Assembly: GCF_000425105.1 (NCBI RefSeq)
Contig: NZ_AULD01000005.1
Coordinates: forward strand, 620,001 to 684,000
Reading direction: 5' to 3'
DNA length: 64,000 bases
Source: Agrococcus lahaulensis DSM 17612
GTDB taxonomy: Bacteria > Actinomycetota > Actinomycetes > Actinomycetales > Microbacteriaceae
A program made the position numbers and the translations under genes. A model generated the notes under the pieces. That model was not told where the DNA came from. It saw only the letters and a program-made list of their open reading frames with translations, and made no database searches. Positions 35,655 to 45,571 of the stretch are shown here, piece by piece; position 1 is the stretch's first letter, and each line of letters opens with the position of its first letter.

Positions 35655-36896
35655 TCAGGCGCGACCGGACGACGCCCGCCGTATGCGCTCTGCAAGGCGG
35701 TCGAGAACGCCGAGCACGTCGTCGCTCTGCCATACCCGGTTCCTGCGACCGGCCGTCGTCTGTCGCAGCACGCCGTCCTCCTCGAGCCGGGCAAGTGCCG
35801 CGCCAGCGGTGGGGGCGGACACCCCAAGCCGCTGCATCACGAACTTCGTGTTCACGACCGGCTGTCCTATGAGCAGGTCGATCAGCGGCCAAGCCGACGA
35901 ATGGGACCGTGCAGTCGTTCGATCCCGCATCGACGCGCGGGCTTCGGCGAGCCCATCGATCAGACTCGTGCCGAATGATGCCGCTTGCCTGGCAGAGCGA
36001 GCAAAGGTCTCCAGGATGGGTCGAGCGTCGCCTTGGCGGAAGGCGGTCAGAGCAGTGAAGTAGCCCTCCGGGTCAGTCAGCAGCCCGGCAGAGATAGGCG
36101 TGGCGACACGACGGGTGGTGCCCGCGCGTCGCAGCATCGCATGCACGAGCGCGCGCCCGGTCCTGCCGTTGCCGTCGGTGAAGGGGTGGATCGTCTCGAA
36201 CTGCGCGTGTGCGAGCGCCGCGTGCGCGAGTGAAGGGAGGTCGTTGCGCTCGATGAATGCCGCGAGATCTTGCATGTCGGCTGCGACGCGCTGATGGAGC
36301 GGCGGCACGAACGATGCGGTTCGGGGCCCCGCTCCACCGCCGATCCACACCTGCTCGGCGCGGAAGGCTCCCGGCGTGTGCCGATCTTGTCCCCGCATGA
36401 GCGCCCGGTGCATCTCCAGGATGCTCGCAACGCCCGGCCGCTCAGCCAAGCGCAGCGCCGCGTCCATGGCGCGGACGTTCCCATGCACCTGCATCGCGTT
36501 GGTGCCGGTCTCCTCACCGATCTCGGCCAGGGCCAGCTTCCTCGCGCTCGCCGTCAGGCCCTCGATCTGCGACGACGACGCACTCTCGGTGCGCAGGAGG
36601 ATCGACTGCAGCGGAGCGATCTCTGCTCCGCCTCGAAGCTGCTCATCGGCGTGTGCATCGAGACGCACGAGCGCACCGGTCGCTTCGTCGAGGTCAGCGG
36701 CGAGGTCGGCAGGCAGGCGCACCTCGAGCTCCGAGACATGAGGCACGACCGCAGCCTGGAAGTCGCCCCGGTTCAGCTCGGCTTGGCGGCGCGAGAGCCC
36801 AGAATCTTCATCGACCTGCCAACGCGCCGTCTCGTACTCGAGAGGGGGCCATGAGGCGATGGGTGGGGCCGAGGCTCCGCCGGCAACCTTGCTCAT
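35655..36896 (-). CDS. Fic family protein (AMP-transferase fold) with N-terminal inhibitory motif
   Basis: 413 aa. The N-terminal Fic_N region (about 35-120) carries the inhibitory helix S-x-x-x-E in SSSQIEG (108-113). The Fic core has the active-site loop HPFTDGNGRTGR (237-248), complete with catalytic His and phosphate-binding residues. The C-terminus (about 325-400) is a winged helix (NTKFVMQRLGVSAPTAGAALARLEEDGVLRQ). It probably transfers AMP to a protein target and is self-inhibited. Base composition is lower in GC than flanking operons, suggesting transfer. No separate antitoxin gene is seen. Confidence 0.9.
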   Translation of the reverse strand: MSKVAGGASAPPIASWPPLEYETARWQVDEDSGLSRRQAELNRGDFQAAVVPHVSELEVRLPADLAADLDEATGALVRLDAHADEQLRGGAEIAPLQSILLRTESASSSQIEGLTASARKLALAEIGEETGTNAMQVHGNVRAMDAALRLAERPGVASILEMHRALMRGQDRHTPGAFRAEQVWIGGGAGPRTASFVPPLHQRVAADMQDLAAFIERNDLPSLAHAALAHAQFETIHPFTDGNGRTGRALVHAMLRRAGTTRRVATPISAGLLTDPEGYFTALTAFRQGDARPILETFARSARQAASFGTSLIDGLAEARASMRDRTTARSHSSAWPLIDLLIGQPVVNTKFVMQRLGVSAPTAGAALARLEEDGVLRQTTAGRRNRVWQSDDVLGVLDRLAERIRRASSGRA

Positions 36897-36964
36897 ACAC
36901 CCACGTTACTAAAGTTTTCGCATGAAACCCTGAATAAGTCATCCACCTGTTGAAGGTTTCTTAA

Positions 36965-38416
36965 CTAGCCGAGAGTTCCGTCGCTCATGACAGTCTCGTG
37001 CACGCCGATCTCCTTGAGCGCCGCGTGCGCCGCGTGCCACCCGCTCATGCCGTGCACGCCGCCGCCCGGCGGTGCCGACGACGAGCACAGGAAGATCCGG
37101 CCCGGCATCGGCACGCGGTAGGGGTTCGCGAGCACGGGCCGCGCGAGCTGCTGCGTGCCCGCGAGCGTGCCGCCGCCGATCGAGCCGCCGATGAGGTTCG
37201 GGTTCCACAGCTCGAGCGCCGCGGGCGTCATCGGCCGACGCTCGAGGATGCGGTCGCGGAAGCCGGGGGCGAAGCGCTCGATCTGCGCCTCGATGGCATC
37301 GGATGCGTCCCCAGGCCATCCGTGCGGCACGTGCGCGTAGGCCCACAGCGTGTGCCGCCCCGCGGGCGCTCGCTCGGGATCGGCGACGCTCGGTTGCGTC
37401 GCAAGCACGAACGGCTGCTCCGGCATGCGGCCGAGCGCGACCTCGCGCTCGGCGTGCGCGATCTCGGCGAGCGTGCCGCTCAGGTGCACGGTGCCGGCGC
37501 GGCCGACGCGCTCGTCCTCCCACGGCACCGGTCCGTCGAGCAGCAGGTCGAGCTTCGAGACCGCCGGGCCGTACTTCCACGTCTCCATCCGCTTCGCGTA
37601 GAGCCCCTCGATGCGGCCGTGCGCGACGCGCAGCAGCTGCCGCGGGGTGAGGTCGAGTAGCACGAGGTCGGCCGGCGGCAGGTCGCGCAGGTCGGCGACG
37701 TCGACGCCGGTCTCGATCCGGCCGCCGTGTGCCTCGATGACGCGACCCAGGGCATCCGCGATCGACTGCGACCCGCCCCTGGCGAACGGCCACCCGGCCG
37801 AGTGGCCGACGCCGCCGAACGCGACGCCGAACGCGCTCGTGAGCGGATGCCCGAGCGGCAGCGTGGCGTGCGTCACCGACCCGGCGAAGAGGGCTTGCGC
37901 GGCGCCCGAGCGGAAGACCGAGCGGGCGAGCAGCGTCGCCGGCCACGCACCGCGCAGCCCGAAGCGCGCGAGCAGCACCGGGTCCTTCGGCCACCGCAGC
38001 AGCGGCCCGAGGATCGCCTCGGCGGTCGCATTCGGATCCTCGGTCGCCGGCGCGTGCAGTCGCAGCCACGCCTTCGCGTCGACGCCGAGCTCGCGCGCGG
38101 TCTGCTCGGCGTCGCGATGCAGGATCGCCGCTCGACCGCCCGGCAGCGGATGCGCCATCGGGTAGTGGGCGTGCACCCACTCGAGCCCGTGCTGCTCGAG
38201 CCCGAGCGAGCGGAAGGCCGGGCTCGTGATGCCGAAGGGGTGTCCGGATGCGCCCGGGTCGATGATCGCCTGGTTGCCGAACGCCGGGATCGACGCGCTC
38301 GCCCCGCCGATCGTCTCATTCCGCTCGAGCACCGTGACCTCGAGCCCGGCGCGCGCGAGCACCGCGGCGGCGGTGAGGCCGTTCGGCCCCGCCCCGACGA
38401 CGACAGCGCTGGTCAT
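36965..38416 (-). CDS. Phytoene desaturase-like FAD-dependent oxidoreductase (COG1233)
   Basis: 483 aa. The N-terminal FAD-binding dinucleotide motif VVVGAGPNGLTAAAVLARAG is followed by VLERNETIGG. The second FAD motif is near the C-terminus (CSSSAPPGGGVHGMSGWHAAHAAL). Family members desaturate or isomerise isoprenoids or other non-polar substrates. No carotenoid synthase or other terpenoid gene lies nearby, so the substrate is open. Separate unit, low-GC patch just upstream of its stop. Confidence 0.85.
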   Translation of the reverse strand: MTSAVVVGAGPNGLTAAAVLARAGLEVTVLERNETIGGASASIPAFGNQAIIDPGASGHPFGITSPAFRSLGLEQHGLEWVHAHYPMAHPLPGGRAAILHRDAEQTARELGVDAKAWLRLHAPATEDPNATAEAILGPLLRWPKDPVLLARFGLRGAWPATLLARSVFRSGAAQALFAGSVTHATLPLGHPLTSAFGVAFGGVGHSAGWPFARGGSQSIADALGRVIEAHGGRIETGVDVADLRDLPPADLVLLDLTPRQLLRVAHGRIEGLYAKRMETWKYGPAVSKLDLLLDGPVPWEDERVGRAGTVHLSGTLAEIAHAEREVALGRMPEQPFVLATQPSVADPERAPAGRHTLWAYAHVPHGWPGDASDAIEAQIERFAPGFRDRILERRPMTPAALELWNPNLIGGSIGGGTLAGTQQLARPVLANPYRVPMPGRIFLCSSSAPPGGGVHGMSGWHAAHAALKEIGVHETVMSDGTLG

Positions 38417-38565: not shown

Positions 38566-39330
38566 TCAGCCGCACGCCTCCAGCACGTCCACGAGCATCC
38601 GCTTGTCCTCGCTCGAGACGGCGAGCGCGTAGTCGTGCGCGATGCTCGTGTAGCGAGCCGCGTACTCGCACCAGAACGCCGGATCCTCCGGCATCCAGTC
38701 CGACGGCCCGCGATCGCTCTTGGTCGAGTTCGTCGGCCCGTCGACGGCGAGGAGCGTCGCCGGATCGTTCGCGAACGCGACGCGCTCGTCGAAGCTCCAC
38801 TCCCACGCGCCGCCGCGGTGCGCCGCCGAGAGGCTGATGATGTGGTCGATCTGCACCGCTTGGCTGTCGCCGCCGATGCGGTCGTGCGCGAAGTCGATCG
38901 TCGCGCCCGTGTACGGGTCGGCGGGCAGCGTGCCGGTCAGCACGGTGCAGCCGTCGTCGGCGAGCGCCTCGCCCTCGAGATCGCGCTGCAGGATGTCCTG
39001 CCGCGTCGAGCATCCGTTGCGGTCGACGTCGACCCATCCGTCACCGAAGTCGGCACGGCGGTAGGGCGGGATCTCGATCGACTCGTCGATGACGTCGAGC
39101 GCGGCCGCGGTCGCCTGCAGAGCGCTCGGCTCGGGTGCCGCAGCCGTCGCCGCGGGCGTCGCCGGGGCGGCGCTCGGCGTCGGGGCCGGCAGCGCGGTCG
39201 CTCGCGTCGGCGGCTCGACGGTGAGCGCACCGGCGGCGCTGCAGCCGGTCAGCAGCACGGTGCCGAGCAGGGCTGCGGCGGCAACAACGCGCGCCGCGCG
39301 CGATGGCGCGTGCCGTTGGGCTGGCGGCAT
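38566..39330 (-). CDS. Lipoprotein HNH endonuclease (DUF1524 type)
   Basis: 254 aa. The signal peptide AARVVAAAALLGTVLLTGC has lipobox LTGC. An Ala/Pro linker runs to about residue 75. The nuclease domain (about 85-250) has the two-Cys CSTRQDILQRDL...CTVLTG segment, the HNH-type core QIDHIISLSAAHRGGAWEW and NSTKSDRGPSDWMP. It probably degrades extracellular DNA at the outer face of the membrane, for nutrient use or defence. Role inferred. Confidence 0.85.
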   Translation of the reverse strand: MPPAQRHAPSRAARVVAAAALLGTVLLTGCSAAGALTVEPPTRATALPAPTPSAAPATPAATAAAPEPSALQATAAALDVIDESIEIPPYRRADFGDGWVDVDRNGCSTRQDILQRDLEGEALADDGCTVLTGTLPADPYTGATIDFAHDRIGGDSQAVQIDHIISLSAAHRGGAWEWSFDERVAFANDPATLLAVDGPTNSTKSDRGPSDWMPEDPAFWCEYAARYTSIAHDYALAVSSEDKRMLVDVLEACG

Positions 39331-39474
39331 GGCGATCTCCGTTCGAGGCGGCGCCGGGCGCGAACGAGCGATCGTCGCGCCGACAGGCGGCTGGGGACCG
39401 CGGCGGCTGTTCCGTCCGCGCCATCGTATGCACGCGCGCCGGGCGACCGGCCGAGCGGGCCCGCGCGCCGCGCG

Positions 39475-39990
39475 TCAGCCGGCGAACCGCTCCCGCACCG
39501 TCTCGTGGCTGATCCGCTGCACCTCGGCGATCTGGTGCTCCGACCGCCGCACGAGGTCGTCGAGCAGCGCCCGGTCGAAGCGCGAGTCGGTCGCCGACAG
39601 CTCGATGAGCGCCTGCCACATCGAGAGCTTGCCGCGCACGGCGCCCGTGAGGAAGTCGAGCTCGAGCTGCGTCATCGAGCTGCGCCGCATTCGCAGCAGG
39701 TTGACCGGGTTGACGCTCCCGCCGGCGCGGAGCAGCAGCGTGAGCGCGCGCTTCCAGCCCTTCGGCCGGTAGCCGAGCTGCTGGATGATCTTCGCGAGGT
39801 CGCGCCGATCGCGATCGACCTCCTCGGCGAGTGCGACGAGCACCTGCTCGTGCGGTGTCCCCTCGAACGTCCTCGCCGCCGCGTGGAACGCCTTCACACC
39901 ACCCTCGGACGCGAGCAGATGCTCGTTCAGGTAGGTCGAGAGGTTTCCGTGGGCGTCGGCGGATGCGTCGGCTCGCGCTGCGTCGTTCAT
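39475..39990 (-). CDS. Helical protein of unknown function
   Basis: 171 aa, predicted all-alpha. A first helix pair (LSTYLNEHLLASEGGVKAFHAAARTFEGTPHEQVLVALAEEVDRDRRDLAKII, in parts) is followed by a basic loop and a second pair ending in RRSEHQIAEVQRISHETVRERF. The spacing of Glu and His residues recalls ferritin-like four-helix bundles, but I cannot assign a family. A separate transcription unit just left of the low-GC operon. Confidence 0.7.
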   Translation of the reverse strand: MNDAARADASADAHGNLSTYLNEHLLASEGGVKAFHAAARTFEGTPHEQVLVALAEEVDRDRRDLAKIIQQLGYRPKGWKRALTLLLRAGGSVNPVNLLRMRRSSMTQLELDFLTGAVRGKLSMWQALIELSATDSRFDRALLDDLVRRSEHQIAEVQRISHETVRERFAG

Positions 39991-40222
39991 GGTCGCCTCC
40001 GGTCGCGGTTCGAGGGAAACGGTACCGATGGCGGCTGGTGAGCGGCTGAGGGCGACAGCGCCTGCGACCGGAGTCTTGGCTCGCCTCGCGTGTTCGGCGA
40101 CGAGACGGCCGCTGAAGGTGCTCGGGTCGATCGGTTCGACGCGTCAGCCAAAGCCCGCTGCTTGCGATCGGGTGGATAGCATGCGATGACTTGACGCTCG
40201 CGAAGAGATCGGTTCCCAAACG

Positions 40223-41839
40223 TTGTCCACCTCATCACGGTTCCTCAGCAATGTTGCCGAGTACATCAAAGCTCGCCACCCGATCCTCGTCGTGGAGACG
40301 CAGGAGGGCGATCGCGTCGTCACTCTCATGGGAAAGGTGGCCGTCAGTCCAGGGCTGAGAACCCAGCGTCGGGTCATCCAGTTCACGTTGACGAACGGTC
40401 TACATGCACCCGGCGAGTCCGGCTCGCCCCTACCCCTTGAGGCGGCGCTCGTCCAGGCAGCGAAAGCGACTGAACCGACGATCTACGTCTTCTTTGACGT
40501 GCACCATGAACTTGGCTCCGAAGGTCGGCCTGGATCCGGCAGGACCGTTCGCGCGCTGCTCGACGCCGCGCAGGCGTTTCGCACCGGTCGTGTCCAACAC
40601 ACGCTCGTCTTGGTGTCGCCCGTTCTAGCACTTCCCGCGGACCTTGAGAAGGAAGCGACGCTTGTCGACCTTCCTCTCCCCGACGCGAGTGAGATTCGCG
40701 ACGTGCTGGACGGGATGATCGAGGCAAACGCTCAAGCCATAGAGGTTGCGCTTGACGCTGAGGGCCGCCACAAACTCGTGCAGGCCGCGCAGGGCCTCAC
40801 TCTTGGTGAAGCGGAGAACGCCTTCGCGCGGGCAATCGTCAACGACCGTCGGCTTGATGAGGACGACATCGCGGTCGTCTTGGAGGAGAAGGGTCAAACG
40901 ATCCGCAAGTCCGGGCTCCTCGAGCTGATTGAGCCCGCCGGCTCACTCGAGGATGTTGGCGGCTTGGAGAACTTGAAGCGTTGGCTCAAGAAGCGTGACG
41001 GGGCCTGGATGGGCGCGGCGGCAGACTGGGGTATCCCGGCACCGAAGGGGGCGCTGATCACTGGCGTGCCGGGTTGTGGCAAATCGCTGACTGCATCATG
41101 CGTCGCAACCGCTTGGCAGCTGCCACTGCTTCGGATGGATGTAGGCCGGATGTTCTCAGGCCTCGTCGGCTCGAGCGAGAGCAACATGAGGCAGGCATTG
41201 CGGCTCGCCGAAGCTGTCTCGCCGTCCATCCTTTGGATAGACGAGATTGAAAAAGGATTCGGTAGTCAAGGGGGAGGCGACTCTGGCACCAGCACGCGGG
41301 TCTTCGGCACGTTCCTTACATGGATGCAAGAAAAGAAGAACTCGGTGTTCGTCATCGCGACCGCCAACAAGATCGACGGACTTCCCCCTGAATTCCTACG
41401 CAAAGGCCGGTTTGATGAGGTGTTCTTCGTCGACCTGCCGACGCTCGAAGAGCGCCTTACGATCTGGTCGCTGCATCTTCAGAAGCGGCTCGCTCCCCCG
41501 TCGAGAGCCGCCGGAGCGCTCAACATCGACAACGAACTAGTCGACCTATTGGCGCAGGCCTCAGAGGGTTTCTCTGGCGCTGAGATAGCCCAGGCGGTGA
41601 TCTCAGCATGCTTCGATGCCTTCTCGGAAGACCGGGCCGTGCTGCAGGGGGACCTGCTTCGCGCGATCGAAACCACTGTTCCGCTATCCGTGACGCAGGC
41701 GGAGCAAATCACCGCAATCCGAGAATGGGCTTCGAGCCGCGCGGTATCGGCAACGGCGAACAGCCATCGGAATAGTTACAGCGGCGACCGCCTCGAGGAC
41801 ATCTCGCAATGGCGCGGCGGTCGCCAGATCGACTTCTGA
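40223..41839 (+). CDS. Ycf46-like AAA+ ATPase
   Basis: 538 aa from a TTG at 40223. The next in-frame start would remove the conserved N-terminus FLSNVAEYIKARHPILVVET. An N-terminal helical/Rossmann-like domain (1-220) is followed by a single AAA+ module. Walker A is GVPGCGKS (281-288), Walker B ILWIDE (336-341), then DSGTSTRVFGTFLTWMQEK, sensor 1 ATANK (379-383) and LRKGRFDE with the arginine finger (393/396). This closely follows the Ycf46 type of cyanobacteria and chloroplasts. It is first in a five-gene operon of lower GC. Likely a remodelling ATPase for one of the partner proteins; function unproven. Confidence 0.9.
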   Translation: MSTSSRFLSNVAEYIKARHPILVVETQEGDRVVTLMGKVAVSPGLRTQRRVIQFTLTNGLHAPGESGSPLPLEAALVQAAKATEPTIYVFFDVHHELGSEGRPGSGRTVRALLDAAQAFRTGRVQHTLVLVSPVLALPADLEKEATLVDLPLPDASEIRDVLDGMIEANAQAIEVALDAEGRHKLVQAAQGLTLGEAENAFARAIVNDRRLDEDDIAVVLEEKGQTIRKSGLLELIEPAGSLEDVGGLENLKRWLKKRDGAWMGAAADWGIPAPKGALITGVPGCGKSLTASCVATAWQLPLLRMDVGRMFSGLVGSSESNMRQALRLAEAVSPSILWIDEIEKGFGSQGGGDSGTSTRVFGTFLTWMQEKKNSVFVIATANKIDGLPPEFLRKGRFDEVFFVDLPTLEERLTIWSLHLQKRLAPPSRAAGALNIDNELVDLLAQASEGFSGAEIAQAVISACFDAFSEDRAVLQGDLLRAIETTVPLSVTQAEQITAIREWASSRAVSATANSHRNSYSGDRLEDISQWRGGRQIDF

Positions 41840-41842
41840 ACC

Positions 41843-42268
41843 GTGAGCGTCGAACTCGTCCTCATCCCGATCGGGATCGCTGCCGTGGCCGCGCGCCGGA
41901 TGGCGCGGGCATCGTCGCTCTGTGAGAGGTGCCGGGCGACCATCGTCGCGGATCGCACTCTCGTCGTCGAAGCATTGACGGTGCTCGACTGGCAGATCCT
42001 CGATCAGGGCAATGAGTTCGTCTGCGCACGAACACCTTGGGGCCCTTCGTTGTTCCGGCAGATCGGCGAAGTCTATCTCGCTCGTGTCGACGGGGCGAGT
42101 GATGAGGTGACGCTCGAAATGATCAAGGTGTTTGACGCTGCAGCGGGCCGAATTGCACAGATGCGAGGTGTGCAGCGTGCGATGCAACAAGCAACGGAGA
42201 TGGGATTGCGCCTGATCGAGCAGCGGGACGAGGGCGGACAAGTCCGCCTCGTCTTTGAGGAGGCTTGA
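41843..42268 (+). CDS. DUF1257 (Ycf35)-like protein with N-terminal hydrophobic helix and CxxC
   Basis: 141 aa from the GTG at 41843, 3 bp after the ATPase stop. Residues 35-141 match the DUF1257 plan: DRTLVVEALTVLDWQI near the start and the C-terminal RAMQQATEMGLRLIEQRDEGGQVRLVFEE. In front is a hydrophobic stretch (5-17) and CERC (27-30), which I do not expect in ordinary Ycf35 proteins. Recurrent partner of Ycf46-like ATPases. Role unknown. It may bind the small DUF2997-like protein or the radical SAM enzyme. Confidence 0.7.
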   Translation: MSVELVLIPIGIAAVAARRMARASSLCERCRATIVADRTLVVEALTVLDWQILDQGNEFVCARTPWGPSLFRQIGEVYLARVDGASDEVTLEMIKVFDAAAGRIAQMRGVQRAMQQATEMGLRLIEQRDEGGQVRLVFEEA

Positions 42269-42269
42269 G

Positions 42270-42485
42270 ATGGCGAAATTCGTGATGACTGTAGATGCCG
42301 ACGGCACGATTCGTACCGAGATTCAAGATGCGCCGGGCGAGGCGTGCTTGGGCCACATTGACACTGCTCGACGTCTCTCGCCCGGTGCGTTGGTGGTCGA
42401 GTCCCGCGCAACAGAACAGTTCGCGCGGACATCCGTCGAACAACAGTCGCGCATCACCGAAGGAGTGCAGGGTTATGACGCCTGA
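42270..42485 (+). CDS. DUF2997-like small protein
   Basis: 71 aa, starting one base after the previous stop. It has the short beta-hairpin start FVMTVDADGTIRTEI followed by the conserved small loop with Cys (PGEACLGHI, Cys near 27) and a helix-sheet end, as in DUF2997. It overlaps the next gene by 11 bp. The family is found with Ycf46/DUF1257 proteins. It could be a substrate, a carrier or a structural partner; the sequence does not decide. Confidence 0.7.
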   Translation: MAKFVMTVDADGTIRTEIQDAPGEACLGHIDTARRLSPGALVVESRATEQFARTSVEQQSRITEGVQGYDA

Positions 42486-43146
42486 GGAAAGACTGTGTAG
42501 CCCGAGGTGGAAGACGTTGCACTCTGTGTGGCTGGTCGCCCCCGTCATCGCAGTCGGCCTGGGAACATGGATTGGCTTCCTGTTCATCGGGCTGCGGGCG
42601 AAGCGCAAGCTGTGGCTGACGTACGCCGTCGCGTACTTTGTCGCGACGATCGCGCTGATGTATCTAGTGTCGGCGGTTCCCACCGGTACCAAGGAGGAGC
42701 CGGAAAACACCTGGGTCGGTGGAGTGCTCATCGCCTTCTGGGCCGCAGGGGTAGTTCATAGTGCGCTGACCAACAAGGCTTGGCTGCGCCATCGCGCGTA
42801 CAGGAGAAGCGATAGCACGTCTACGCCGGCGCCGCTCAAGCCACCCTCGGCTCAGGAGCACGCTGGACGCGAGTTGAAGGCAACAGAGATCAGTCAGCGT
42901 GATCCCATTGACATCAACTCGGCAGATGTGGACGCCCTCGTCGCAGCTGGCCTCGCAGCCGAGGAGGCGGACGCGGTTGTTCGGGCGCGCGCCTTGGGCG
43001 GGGACTACGCGCAGGTCACGGACCTCATCTCTCGTGCTGACCTGCCTCCCCATCGATTCGCGATGGTTCGCACGCAACTGGTGGCGCTTCGACGGAACTC
43101 ACGCAGCTCCACCACTCCCTCCTCCGGTCGGCGTCTCGACCTGTGA
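42475..43146 (+). CDS. Membrane protein with C-terminal helix-hairpin-helix domain
   Basis: 223 aa from the ATG at 42475 (AAGGAG upstream). Three hydrophobic segments (about 18-41, 47-68, 80-99) are followed by a polar Ser/Pro-rich linker. A C-terminal ComEA/GspK-like helix-hairpin-helix pattern follows (DINSADVDALVAAGLAAEEADAVVRARA...QVTDLISRADLP, about 145-205). HhH motifs bind DNA or partner proteins. It probably tethers the system to the membrane. GTGA overlap to the radical SAM gene. Confidence 0.75.
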   Translation: MTPEERLCSPRWKTLHSVWLVAPVIAVGLGTWIGFLFIGLRAKRKLWLTYAVAYFVATIALMYLVSAVPTGTKEEPENTWVGGVLIAFWAAGVVHSALTNKAWLRHRAYRRSDSTSTPAPLKPPSAQEHAGRELKATEISQRDPIDINSADVDALVAAGLAAEEADAVVRARALGGDYAQVTDLISRADLPPHRFAMVRTQLVALRRNSRSSTTPSSGRRLDL

Positions 43147-43739
43147 AGGTTCGTATAGCGCGAGTCCTCAATTCGACCGTCGCTGAGGGGCCGGGCGTCC
43201 GCACTGCGGTTTGGTTCCAGGGCTGCACCATTAGGTGCCGGGGCTGCGTGAACCCGCACCTCTTTCGTGCGGACGGCGGGGCTCTGGTGGATAGCTCCGA
43301 CATCGTCGCCAGTGCAGTCGCAGCCGGTGACGAGGGCCTTACGTTCATAGGGGGTGAACCCTTCGACCAAGCGCCTGCGGCCGCCGCGCTGGCGCGCGTC
43401 GCAAGCGAACAAGGATTGGGAGTCATCTGCTTTACCGGTTACGAGTACGAGACTCTCGTAGCTCGGAGCGCCGATGCGCGCTCGCTGATCGAGCACATCG
43501 ACCTCCTCGTTGATGGCCCCTACATTGCGGACCGCGCCGAACGATCCAGACCTCTCGTCGGATCGACCAACCAGAGGTTCATCCACCTAACCGAGCGCTA
43601 TCGCACCAGCATCGAAAGCACTCGCAACCGGATCGAAGTTCGTTTGGCAATCACGGGTCAGGTGGACGTCGCTGGGTTCACCGACGCACCGGGCGTGGCG
43701 TCGTTGCAACGCACGTTGGGCCGGCGGCGGCGCCCGTAG
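43143..43739 (+). CDS. Radical SAM enzyme of the NrdG/activase type
   Basis: 198 aa from the GTG at 43143. The 4Fe-4S motif CxxxCxxC is C28, C32, C35 in WFQGCTIRCRGCVNP, and GGEP (70-73) binds SAM. The N-terminal NSTVAEGPGVRTAVWFQGC is the class III ribonucleotide reductase activase signature. No nrdD or other glycyl-radical enzyme is nearby, so it probably serves the operon partners instead. It could act on one of the small proteins, but that is speculation. Last gene of the operon. Confidence 0.87.
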   Translation: MKVRIARVLNSTVAEGPGVRTAVWFQGCTIRCRGCVNPHLFRADGGALVDSSDIVASAVAAGDEGLTFIGGEPFDQAPAAAALARVASEQGLGVICFTGYEYETLVARSADARSLIEHIDLLVDGPYIADRAERSRPLVGSTNQRFIHLTERYRTSIESTRNRIEVRLAITGQVDVAGFTDAPGVASLQRTLGRRRRP

Positions 43740-43988
43740 TACGGGATCTGCCTCGCACGTCGCTCGCTTCGCTCTAAGAACTGCGCTCGTCGGGCAGCAA
43801 GCTACCGCCAGCCATAGGAGCGCGATCAGATGCGCTGCTTATCAAACGGGAAGCGGAGCAGTTCACGATCGACGCGAGGTAGTCGGGTACGCGACGCTCG
43901 GGATTGCTCGCGGTCTGTGCACGCGACGAGACGCTGCTCGCGGAGCTACGACGGCTTCCTTCGAGCGTCCATGCGGCACGCTTGCGGC
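43740..43988. other. 249-bp gap right of the low-GC operon
   Basis: Mixed base composition. No promoter, terminator or RNA gene stands out. The minus strand can be read as a short frame ending near 43774 (RRVPDYLASIVNCSAS...), which may be the remains of a gene, but nothing supports it further. It marks the return to high-GC chromosomal sequence. Confidence 0.4.
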
Positions 43989-44510
43989 ATGCACACCGAG
44001 GGTCACGCATCCACTCGCTCCGATGCGGCGCTCGTCGCCGCCGGCTGGGTCGCCGTCATCGCGCCGCTCGTCGCGATCGCGCTCAAGCTGCCGACCGGCG
44101 GCTGGCTGCTCGTCGGGATGTTCTTCTCGTTCCCGATCTGGCTGCTCGGCTACGCCGCCGTCATCACCGCCGCGGTCAGCATGCTGCGCCGTCGCGGGGC
44201 GCTCCGCGCGCCAGGGCACCGCACGAGGGCGATCATCTGGGCGTGGCTCACGTCGATCGGCGTGATGGTCGCCGGCTTCACCGTCGTCGACAGCGGCGAC
44301 ACGAGCGAGTCCGTCGCCTCGACGCTCGCGCTCGTCGCCGGCCAGACGGGCGTCGACTCGCCGGTCAACGACATCTCGAACGCGATCGCGGGAGTGGCCG
44401 CGATCGCCTGGCTCGCCGGCTGGCTCGCGCTCGTCGTCGAGTGGATGATCGCGATGGCGAGGCCTCGCCAGGATGCGCCGCGCGTCGCGCCTCCCGTCGT
44501 CAATCCGTAG
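43989..44510 (+). CDS. Membrane protein of unknown function
   Basis: 173 aa from the ATG at 43989. The in-frame start at 43830 would add an unlikely Arg/Ser-rich leader. Four hydrophobic segments (about 13-34, 38-62, 78-98, 132-158) are separated by short basic or acidic loops. No recognised family. High GC, unlike the operon to its left. Confidence 0.65.
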   Translation: MHTEGHASTRSDAALVAAGWVAVIAPLVAIALKLPTGGWLLVGMFFSFPIWLLGYAAVITAAVSMLRRRGALRAPGHRTRAIIWAWLTSIGVMVAGFTVVDSGDTSESVASTLALVAGQTGVDSPVNDISNAIAGVAAIAWLAGWLALVVEWMIAMARPRQDAPRVAPPVVNP

Positions 44511-44556
44511 CGCGACCTCGGCGCGCCCTCCAGCCCGCCGTCGATACGGTTGAGGG

Positions 44557-45165
44557 ATGCCAGAGCTCGCCAACGGGAAGTACGTCTCGCAAGCCGACGC
44601 CATCCGCAGGTGGTGGCCCGCCGCGCGCGACGCGCTCATCGAGACCGCCGGCGAGTACGGAGCGTGGATGTCCTTCCAGGCGCTGAGCGGCCGCGTGCAG
44701 GCGCGCACCGGCATCACGACGAACCAGCCGCCGGAGGAGTGGATCCCGCGCGTGCTCGGCGCGGTGGCGACGGATGCGGAACGACGCGGCGAGCCCCGGC
44801 TCACGTCGCTGTGCGTGACGGCCGAGCTCCTCGTCGCGGAGGACTATGCCGGCGTGCCGGCTGGAACGGACGCCCGCACGCGCGAGCGCATCGCAGCCGA
44901 GGACCGGCTCGAGTGCTACCGATTCTTCGGCGCTGCGATGCCCGACGACGGCGGCACCGCGACGGTGCTCGCGCCGCTGCCGGCCATCGCCGCCCGAGCG
45001 GCCCGCCCCGCTCGCGCCGAGCGGCCTGCCCGCACTCGCGCGACGACCCCGAAGGCCGCGCCCGCGGCCAGCAGCGGCATGCGTGAGACCACCTGCCCGC
45101 ACTGCTTCATGGTGGTGCCTGTCGCGCCGACCTGCCGCGACTGCGGTGGTGCGCTCGCGGCCTGA
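44557..45165 (+). CDS. Hypothetical protein with C-terminal zinc ribbon
   Basis: 202 aa. The first 130 residues form a helical domain beginning LANGKYVSQADAIRRWWPAARDALIETAGEYGAWMSF that I do not recognise. An Ala/Pro/Arg linker follows. The last 27 residues carry CPHC and CRDC (TTCPHCFMVVPVAPTCRDCGGAL), a four-cysteine zinc ribbon. A shorter, decayed copy of this ribbon occurs at 63630-63695. Possibly a nucleic-acid or protein-binding factor. Confidence 0.7.
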   Translation: MPELANGKYVSQADAIRRWWPAARDALIETAGEYGAWMSFQALSGRVQARTGITTNQPPEEWIPRVLGAVATDAERRGEPRLTSLCVTAELLVAEDYAGVPAGTDARTRERIAAEDRLECYRFFGAAMPDDGGTATVLAPLPAIAARAARPARAERPARTRATTPKAAPAASSGMRETTCPHCFMVVPVAPTCRDCGGALAA

Positions 45166-45172
45166 CGCCGCG

Positions 45173-45571
45173 TCAGAAGGCGGCAGCGCCCGCCTCTGCG
45201 ACCGAGTGGTCCTGCTCGCCCGAGCCGCCGCTCACGCCCACCGCGCCGACGACCTGACCGTCTCGCATGAGCGGCACGCCGCCGGCGAAGATGGCGACCT
45301 TGCCGCCGTTCGTCGTGTGGATGCCGAAGAACTGCTGCTGCGGCTGCGCGTTGTCGCCGAGGTCCTTCGTCGTGATGTCGAACGCGCGCGACGTCCACGC
45401 CTTGCTGATCGAGATGTCGATGCTGCCGATCCAGGCGCCGTCCTGCCGCACGTGGGCGACGAGGTTGCCGCCGGCGTCGACGACGGCGATGTTCATCGGC
45501 TGGCCCATCTCATCGGCCCTCGCCTCGGCGGCCGCGATGATGCGGCGGGCGTCCTCGAGCGTGACGTTCAT
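45173..45571 (-). CDS. GlcG/HbpS family heme-binding protein
   Basis: 132 aa from the ATG at 45571. It opens NVTLEDARRIIAAAEARADE, then NIAVVDAGGNLVAHVRQDGAW, SISKAWTSRAF and AGGVPLMRDGQVVGAVGVSGGSGEQDHSVAEAG, the full GlcG/HbpS pattern. Members bind heme or act as accessory proteins in glycolate- and diol-related operons. Divergent from the glycerol operon, which may share its regulatory region. Start 45571 is chosen because earlier in-frame starts enter the leader of the other operon. Confidence 0.88.
   Translation of the reverse strand: MNVTLEDARRIIAAAEARADEMGQPMNIAVVDAGGNLVAHVRQDGAWIGSIDISISKAWTSRAFDITTKDLGDNAQPQQQFFGIHTTNGGKVAIFAGGVPLMRDGQVVGAVGVSGGSGEQDHSVAEAGAAAF

Follow-up and report, generated by a model that had tools for sequence, protein, structure and literature searches.

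A C-terminal tail shared by the ATPase and the membrane protein of a mobile five-gene radical SAM module in Agrococcus lahaulensis

What might an AAA+ ATPase, two small DUF-family proteins, a membrane protein and a radical S-adenosylmethionine (SAM) enzyme do together in one operon? This question is raised by a locus of Agrococcus lahaulensis DSM 17612, which we analyzed within a stretch of 64,000 nucleotides (contig NZ_AULD01000005.1, positions 620,001 to 684,000), hereafter called the window. At window positions 40223-43739, five co-directional genes encode a double-AAA ATPase, a DUF1257-like protein, a DUF2997-like protein, a protein with transmembrane (TM) segments and a helix-hairpin-helix (HhH) domain, and an NrdG-like radical SAM enzyme (Table 1). 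Their common direction and low GC content, the TTG start of the first gene and the ATPase and radical SAM motifs, all reported in an initial annotation made from the sequence alone, were confirmed. Missed by that reading, and newly found here, is a short C-terminal tail, G-R-x-[ILV]-[DE]-hydrophobic, which ends both the ATPase (GRQIDF) and the HhH protein (GRRLDL). Our best explanation, which we put forward tentatively, is a mobile, membrane-docked, p97-like remodelling module acting on tail-tagged membrane clients or effectors.

A tail shared by two proteins of a conserved gene set

An alignment of seven radical SAM sequences was used to scan species genomes, by which at least 552 relatives were confirmed and the best 80 loci were kept; profiles of the other four families were then iterated within these loci. 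The complete five-component set was present in 58 of the 80 loci, which belonged to several phyla and showed several gene orders. Judged by record titles, the complete loci included Pseudarthrobacter, Cryobacterium, Microbacterium, Amycolatopsis, relatives of Micromonospora and Bacilli, as well as Clostridia, Gastranaerophilales and a Prevotellaceae record. Several of the remaining 22 loci were cut by contig ends, and the rest were other systems. With regard to gene order, 22 runs were arranged as in the window, three other complete orders were represented by 13, 7 and 6 runs, and several orders were singletons; this tally includes the window's own and the plasmid loci, and some runs in it were split by gene-calling gaps. 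That the genes were reshuffled and yet none was lost argues strongly for a functional link between them.

A second set of loci was picked with a DUF2997 profile built from the first set, and not with the radical SAM enzyme. It comprised 20 stretches from two lineages, 10 from the 40 matching genomes in the family of the L046 genome and 10 from the 15 matching genomes in the order of the L043 genome; these were mostly high-scoring, the weakest matches being excluded. After three duplicates of the discovery set (L199, L200 and L211) had been removed, all five families were found in 17 of the 17 remaining loci. The expectation that the five genes would be conserved together elsewhere was thus borne out in both sets.

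We defined the strict tail as GR.[ILVMF][DE][FLVYIMW] at the C-terminus and searched for it in all stop-to-stop open reading frames (ORFs) of at least 30 amino acids in loci L001-L130, L001 being the window's own operon. The strict tail ended 110 of 31,887 ORFs, which were 56 ATPases, 51 HhH proteins and three in-operon proteins of the Mrr type. In the 58 complete loci, the ATPase carried the tail at its very end in 50 of 58 cases and no more than three residues from the end in 55, and 60 of the 67 proteins matching the HhH profile had a tail when the glycine was not required (47 in the strict form; an HhH protein of L026 that was cut by a contig end was scored as a miss). The corresponding counts were 0 of 59 for DUF1257, 1 of 58 for DUF2997 and 0 of 58 for the radical SAM enzyme. 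Other ORFs of L015-L094 had the tail in 7 of 20,746 cases, and the three strict ones were the same three Mrr-type proteins. Because the motif was defined on the first loci, the later loci are a fairer test: here the strict tail was present in 17 of 17 ATPases and 17 of 20 HhH proteins, the other three being two loose versions and one protein without the last residue.

A nucleotide pattern encoding the tail (arginine as CGN, last codon NTN) occurred at five places in the A. lahaulensis genome compared with one for the reversed control. Two of the five are the operon genes, a third lies at the end of a very short frame behind lexA, and the remaining two lack a following stop. In four more genomes (phenylalanine or tyrosine as last residue), the only matches that closed an ORF of more than 51 amino acids were those of operon ATPases and HhH proteins. 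So far as these searches reach, the tail marks two otherwise unrelated proteins and is exclusive to the operon. Conservation at the level of single residues was also high, with G533 and R534 of the ATPase tail at least 90% conserved in 60 rows and R219 of the HhH tail at least 90% conserved in 45 rows. Among the papers listed in a literature search that did not cover most subscription journals, none described the module or the tail, judged by title, beginning of the abstract or opened passages.

Five strict tail-bearers were found beyond the ATPases and HhH proteins, three in the first set and two in the later loci, and all of them were Mrr-type restriction-endonuclease proteins. They matched Mrr_cat at E-values of 3.4e-21 to 2e-23 and, more weakly, the inactive NA-iREase1 family. 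Each had two or three hydrophobic stretches together with a D...QCK signature, which we take to be catalytic. The tail connects a radical SAM enzyme, a p97-like machine and Mrr-type nucleases at the membrane. The shared tail and these nucleases, neither of which had been noticed initially, are a better handle on mechanism. Presence of the tail on a motor and its partners is testable with respect to the tail binder and the substrate of the radical enzyme, and the last six residues offer a route to further clients or effectors.

The HhH protein of the window matched HHH_3 at residues 143-202 (25.9 bits, cut-off 27) and had three hydrophobic segments, in agreement with the membrane location first ascribed to it. 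Based on a hydropathy rule, at least one TM-like segment was present in 53 of 65 HhH proteins. These proteins are modular, with HHH_3 in 37 of 45 and TPR repeats in at least 6 of 45. By way of example, an HhH protein of Amycolatopsis (L023:11004-12179) had a different N-terminal region, one of a gut Clostridium bin (L074:10171-15585) had N-terminal TPR repeats, and L055 contained a short protein with a membrane part and the tail, in which no HhH domain was visible on reading. The domains in front of the tail thus vary more than the tail itself.

Table 1. Features of the operon and its insert in the window, and tail-bearing Mrr-type proteins in other loci
Feature	Position	Strand	Remarks
AAA+ ATPase, 538 aa, p97-like	40223..41839	+	TTG start; inactive first AAA, active second AAA
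ATPase C-terminal tail GRQIDF	41819..41836	+	Same tail type as HhH protein
DUF1257 (Ycf35)-like protein, 141 aa	41843..42268	+	GTG start
DUF2997-like small protein, 71 aa	42270..42485	+	ATG start
Membrane protein with ComEA-type HhH domain, 223 aa	42475..43146	+	ATG start
HhH protein C-terminal tail GRRLDL	43126..43143	+
Radical SAM enzyme, NrdG-like group, 198 aa	43143..43739	+	GTG start
Foreign insert, 3898 bp	40054..43951	no strand	Empty site in G265 and GC content
Mrr-type tail-bearers	L074:16179-16925, L027:7809-8549, L050:16723-17448, L195:12128-12913, L196:2387-3151		Membrane-anchored

Mobility and distribution of the module

First, comparison with a genus-mate (genome G265) revealed an empty site: the flanks that end at window position 40053 and resume at 43952 are 32 bp apart in that genome and 3898 bp apart here, and thus the insert contains the operon and little else. 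Second, the GC content of the insert (0.626) was lower than that of the remaining window (0.7175) and fell outside the range of 0.687-0.744 given by 524 overlapping windows of the same length outside the insert, and the GC content at third codon positions was 0.64-0.74 in the five operon genes versus 0.92-0.95 in four host genes. Third, the ATPase and DUF1257-like genes were both present in five actinobacterial plasmid records, and in the four of these that were opened the five genes lay together in the window's order. The empty site, the plasmids and the GC content show that the module is mobile, as had been supposed. At the insert ends, neither a clear target-site duplication nor a clear terminal repeat was seen; searches for terminal repeats, promoters and RNA families at the insert gave nothing usable, and an Rfam scan of 39000-45200 at gathering thresholds gave no match. 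Spacings along the operon were +3, +1, -11 and -4 bp, so that the initially described "0-3 bp" gaps or overlaps are gaps of 3 and 1 bp followed by 11-bp and 4-bp overlaps.

The module is patchily distributed and widely conserved. The DUF2997 profile matched 2 of 396 Actinomycetota genomes (the window's genome included), 40 of 146 genomes in the family of the L046 genome and 15 of 299 genomes in the order of the L043 genome. In the window's own family, the DUF1257-like protein gave matches in 5 of 299 genomes at an E-value of 0.001, and these, the own genome aside, were partial and scored 20-25 bits. Viral contigs contained 36 loci with relatives of the radical SAM enzyme, one of which (L127) also had an ATPase and a DUF2997 match.

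A recurrent sixth partner, the existence of which had been considered in the initial annotation, was not found, and extra genes within the operons looked lineage-specific by reading. The Pfam families matched by 140 neighbouring proteins, taken from 36 of the 80 loci, had no more than two members each (25 of 206 families listed, in order of membership). PADLOC gave few matches to the same 140 neighbours, for instance SngA, SngB and BrxD among the matches listed (25 of 35 families), for which there is no background rate.

Proteins of the module and a possible mechanism

In the ATPase, GVPGCGKS at residues 281-288 was the sole match to the Walker A pattern G....GK[ST], none being present in residues 1-240, i.e. 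in the first AAA domain. D340, E341, R393 and R396 were invariant in a 60-row alignment that included the window's protein. The predicted model (mean predicted local distance difference test, pLDDT, 88.9) resembled p97 over both AAA domains (5c18_F, Z 26.0, root-mean-square deviation (rmsd) 8.5, 403 residues aligned) and Vps4 over the active AAA domain (6bmf_B, Z 25.9, rmsd 3.1, 275 aligned). The predicted double-AAA architecture is like that of p97/CDC48 and Vps4, ATPases for which short functional C-terminal tails are known; in contrast to them, the operon ATPase has a first AAA domain without Walker A, different partners and a different tail. In the model, the last eight residues had a pLDDT of about 66 versus 53 for the preceding ten, which hints at, and does not show, a tail docked onto the ATPase itself.

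The modelled resemblance to p97 and Vps4, which extract and disassemble membrane complexes, could also favor a reading of the tail as a degron or unfolding tag that is pulled into the ATPase pore, the module then serving quality control or turnover of membrane proteins. The tail is indeed short and C-terminal, has a hydrophobic last residue and lies on membrane proteins. However, the ATPase itself bears it, no protease domain was found by Pfam among the five operon proteins, and the tail-bearers found were dedicated operon members and not general proteins. We regard such a role as quite unlikely.

The radical SAM enzyme had the motif C28xxxC32xxC35 and GGEP at 70-73, both invariant in the seven-row alignment, as was G178-F179 in its C-terminal extension. 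It matched Fer4_12 above the cut-off (E 6.3e-30) and Radical_SAM below it (26 bits, cut-off 29.5). On its CxxxCxxC motif and family profile, the enzyme is classed as a member of the radical SAM superfamily. Its best NCBIfam match was NrdG (TIGR02491; E 1.4e-25), as would be expected if it were an NrdG-type activase for a glycyl-radical enzyme and its neighbours were unrelated. This match, however, reached 90 bits compared with a cut-off of 126.1, and the enzyme is conserved with the four other genes. In addition, the genome gave no match to NrdD in a search whose positive controls worked, and no Gly_radical domain was found in it; the partner that could have explained the gene in this way thus did not turn up in these searches, and the initial annotation had noted its absence from the operon. 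An activase function appears very improbable.

DUF1257 and DUF2997, two Pfam families without a known function, recur alongside ATPases of this type. The initial labels of the two small proteins were weaker than first given when the window's proteins were taken alone. The DUF1257-like protein had no Pfam match of its own, and PF06868 was matched nowhere in the genome. On the other hand, 4 of 50 homologues matched PF06868, and profile-profile comparison with annotated DUF1257 gave a probability of 94.5% (E 7.8e-8). Gln106 was invariant in the 50 rows. At least one TM-like segment was present in 35 of 57 DUF1257 proteins by the hydropathy rule, and in the window's protein there was none. The predicted fold was b-a-b4-a-bb, a confident small a/b model (86.1), with KA1- and BamC-like matches near noise (best Foldseek E 0.1); VIA-align scores for 2yh6_A (Z 8.6, rmsd 2.1, 76 aligned) and 5wi2_A (Z 8.5, rmsd 2.4, 74 aligned) were near the tool's stated noise level. 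Among solved structures, weak matches to an Arc-repressor helix and a designed protein (best 1u9p_A, E 1.7e-4) were not taken as homology; no stretch of the 1u9p_A comparison passed on its own.

The window's DUF2997-like protein scored 13.7 bits against PF11211 (cut-off 24.1), whereas 62 of the 63 rows of its alignment matched this family at an E-value of 0.01 or better. No related solved structure was found. G23 and C26, forming a G-x-x-C motif, were invariant in the 63 rows, and the radical SAM gene was present in every one of the 17 later loci, which had been selected with the DUF2997 profile. Both features would suit a protein-based effector or cofactor system in which the radical SAM enzyme modifies DUF2997 at G-x-x-C, delivery or release of this protein being the task of the ATPase and DUF1257. 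The same motif, however, was kept in a Geminocystis locus (L009) and on a Vibrio plasmid (L142) without an annotated radical SAM gene nearby, so that the cysteine does not track the radical enzyme, and the shared tail would be left unexplained. We consider this possibility unlikely, and these data do not show that, as initially proposed, the DUF2997 protein is what the ATPase and the radical enzyme act on or through.

Our tentative remodelling hypothesis would accommodate the tail as follows. A p97-like ATPase ring, together with DUF1257, DUF2997 and the radical SAM enzyme, would work on membrane-anchored clients bearing the tail G-R-x-[ILV]-[DE]-[FVLY]. Most clients would be proteins with TM segments and an HhH domain, to which some Gastranaerophilales and gut Clostridium loci would add TPR and HhH proteins and membrane-anchored nucleases of the Mrr type. 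Because the ATPase has the same tail as these clients, recognition of the tail, as a docking or addressing signal, probably couples clients to the ring: the two kinds of tail may share a single docking receptor, or else the ATPase may carry its tail as a competing, built-in pseudo-client. ATP turnover would load or release clients, and the radical SAM enzyme would carry out a maturation step on a module protein. The likeliest use would be defence, by action on DNA arriving at the membrane, because of the HhH domains (which are DNA-binding in ComEA), the Mrr-type nucleases in five loci, the patchy mobile distribution and the helicase and PIN proteins of L083 described below. A more far-reaching version, possible but doubtful, would be an undescribed membrane-based defence against incoming DNA built as a plug-in effector system with a C-terminal address code, in which activation displaces the pseudo-client tail of the ATPase, a component is matured by the radical SAM enzyme and new effectors join simply by acquiring the tail.

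Several observations weigh against the remodelling hypothesis. The tail receptor is hypothetical, and the pLDDT of the modelled ATPase tail is about 66 only. In three loci (L032, L039 and L063), presumably of Micromonosporaceae, the ATPase has no proper tail and the HhH protein retains it. Co-variation between ATPase and HhH tails within loci is weak: with L001 left out, the observed match was reached by 46 of 2000 shuffles, in which relatedness was not controlled. The raw DNA pattern was not enriched in the four additional genomes (13 matches versus 11 for the reversed control), and therefore exclusivity rests on reading frames. Mrr-type proteins were present in five loci only, two to three of them closely alike. 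Finally, enrichment of the neighbours in defence genes, as in a defence island, was not demonstrable in an analysis that had no background control, and the match to 40 of 146 genomes in one family would also fit a physiological role.

Loci of this type without the tail bear on a further reading, in which the tail is itself the substrate of the radical SAM enzyme, the C-termini of ATPase and clients being chemically matured as such enzymes do on peptides. Nine ATPases of this type had no annotated radical SAM gene in the stretch examined, and none of them (0/9) had the strict tail; four of the nine were also without annotated DUF1257 and DUF2997 nearby. Each of the 17 later loci, for which DUF2997 had served as the search profile, had the radical SAM gene beside its tail-bearing genes (the 58 complete loci contain it by definition), and in the simpler subtype of FtsH ternary systems a radical SAM enzyme likely modifies a peptide effector, as proposed by Kaur et al. 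(2020; PMC7159879). By contrast, in Anaeromyxobacter (L031:543-3976 and L037:9923-13386) an ATPase, a membrane protein and DUF1257- and DUF2997-like genes were found with an opposite-strand radical SAM gene nearby and, by reading, had neither an HhH domain nor the tail; L071 showed the same arrangement of ATPase and radical SAM enzyme. In four helicase/PIN-type loci and in four loci of the FtsH-ternary type, all with a radical SAM enzyme, the ATPase likewise had no such tail. Moreover, no SPASM domain was found in the enzyme by Pfam, the most constant tail residue is arginine, which is no obvious radical target, and related tails occur in a system without an annotated radical SAM gene in the stretch: the Vibrio conjugative plasmid (L142:3626-7388) has the ATPase, DUF1257- and DUF2997-like genes and a membrane-type protein, and the ends of the ATPase (GRKVSV) and membrane-type protein (KRKVILD) are alike but off the main motif. 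Like this pair, the similar but off-motif ends of the ATPase and its neighbour on a Paenibacillus plasmid (L011; RRISH and SRVIHF) are anecdotal. Overall, modification of the tail by the radical enzyme is a serious alternative, one that seems rather unlikely to us.

Comparison with known systems and related operons

The module resembles FtsH ternary systems in style and is not filed here as a member. According to Kaur et al. (PMC7159879), these systems combine a MoxR-vWA pair with a double FtsH-type AAA protein whose first domain is dead; the likeness lies in such a double FtsH-type AAA protein with an inactive first domain and, in the simpler subtype, in a radical SAM gene. In contrast, Pfam revealed no MoxR or vWA domain in the five genes of the window's insert, to which this search was confined, and the module has DUF1257, DUF2997 and tail-bearing HhH proteins. 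Some of the 80 loci (L058, L065, L073, L078 and, less closely, L072) had FtsH ternary accessory genes, and proteins tested from L058, L065 and L073 matched the Pfam families fvmX3-analog, X7, and X5 plus X6. Direct homology of DUF1257 and DUF2997 to fvmX5 and fvmX3-analog was not established: the match between the DUF1257 and fvmX5 profiles was weak (28.6%, 34 columns), and a link between those of DUF2997 and fvmX3-analog was absent (0.4%).

A second comparison concerns the Ycf46/Ycf35 (DUF1257)/DUF2997 group found in cyanobacteria and on plasmids, Ycf46 being the name that we, like the initial annotation, presume to apply to the operon ATPase. The ATPase, DUF1257 and DUF2997 were near each other in Geminocystis, Pseudanabaena, Planktothrix and Manganitrophus, whereas these stretches showed no annotated radical SAM or HhH gene and no strict ATPase tail. 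In Synechocystis, DUF2997 and Ycf35 are located next to fed7 (PMC4284462). The anti-phage ATPase IetA (PADLOC/NCBIfam) shares an AAA domain with the operon ATPase (E 2.4e-22 and 1.2e-18); identity with it was rejected, since the similarity covered residues 268-505 only and reached 67.5 bits against a cut-off of 510. A further difference from IetA is the lack of a protease domain among the five operon proteins noted above.

A different operon type was seen in L083:901-10573, with a large SF1-helicase-like protein, a PIN-domain protein, a 375-aa protein, an AAA ATPase and an NrdG-like radical SAM enzyme. L079, L086, L088, L091 and L094 were of the same type by size and order, Pfam being applied to L083 only. 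Operons of this type are possibly an undescribed nucleic-acid-directed system. On a Treponema plasmid (L010:5345-9569), a radical SAM gene and an ATPase gene lay directly upstream of a gene annotated as phage baseplate assembly protein V. Elsewhere in the window, a gene for a Fic-like protein (by reading) was located at 35655-36896, in a region of lower GC content (0.665 at 36001-37000).

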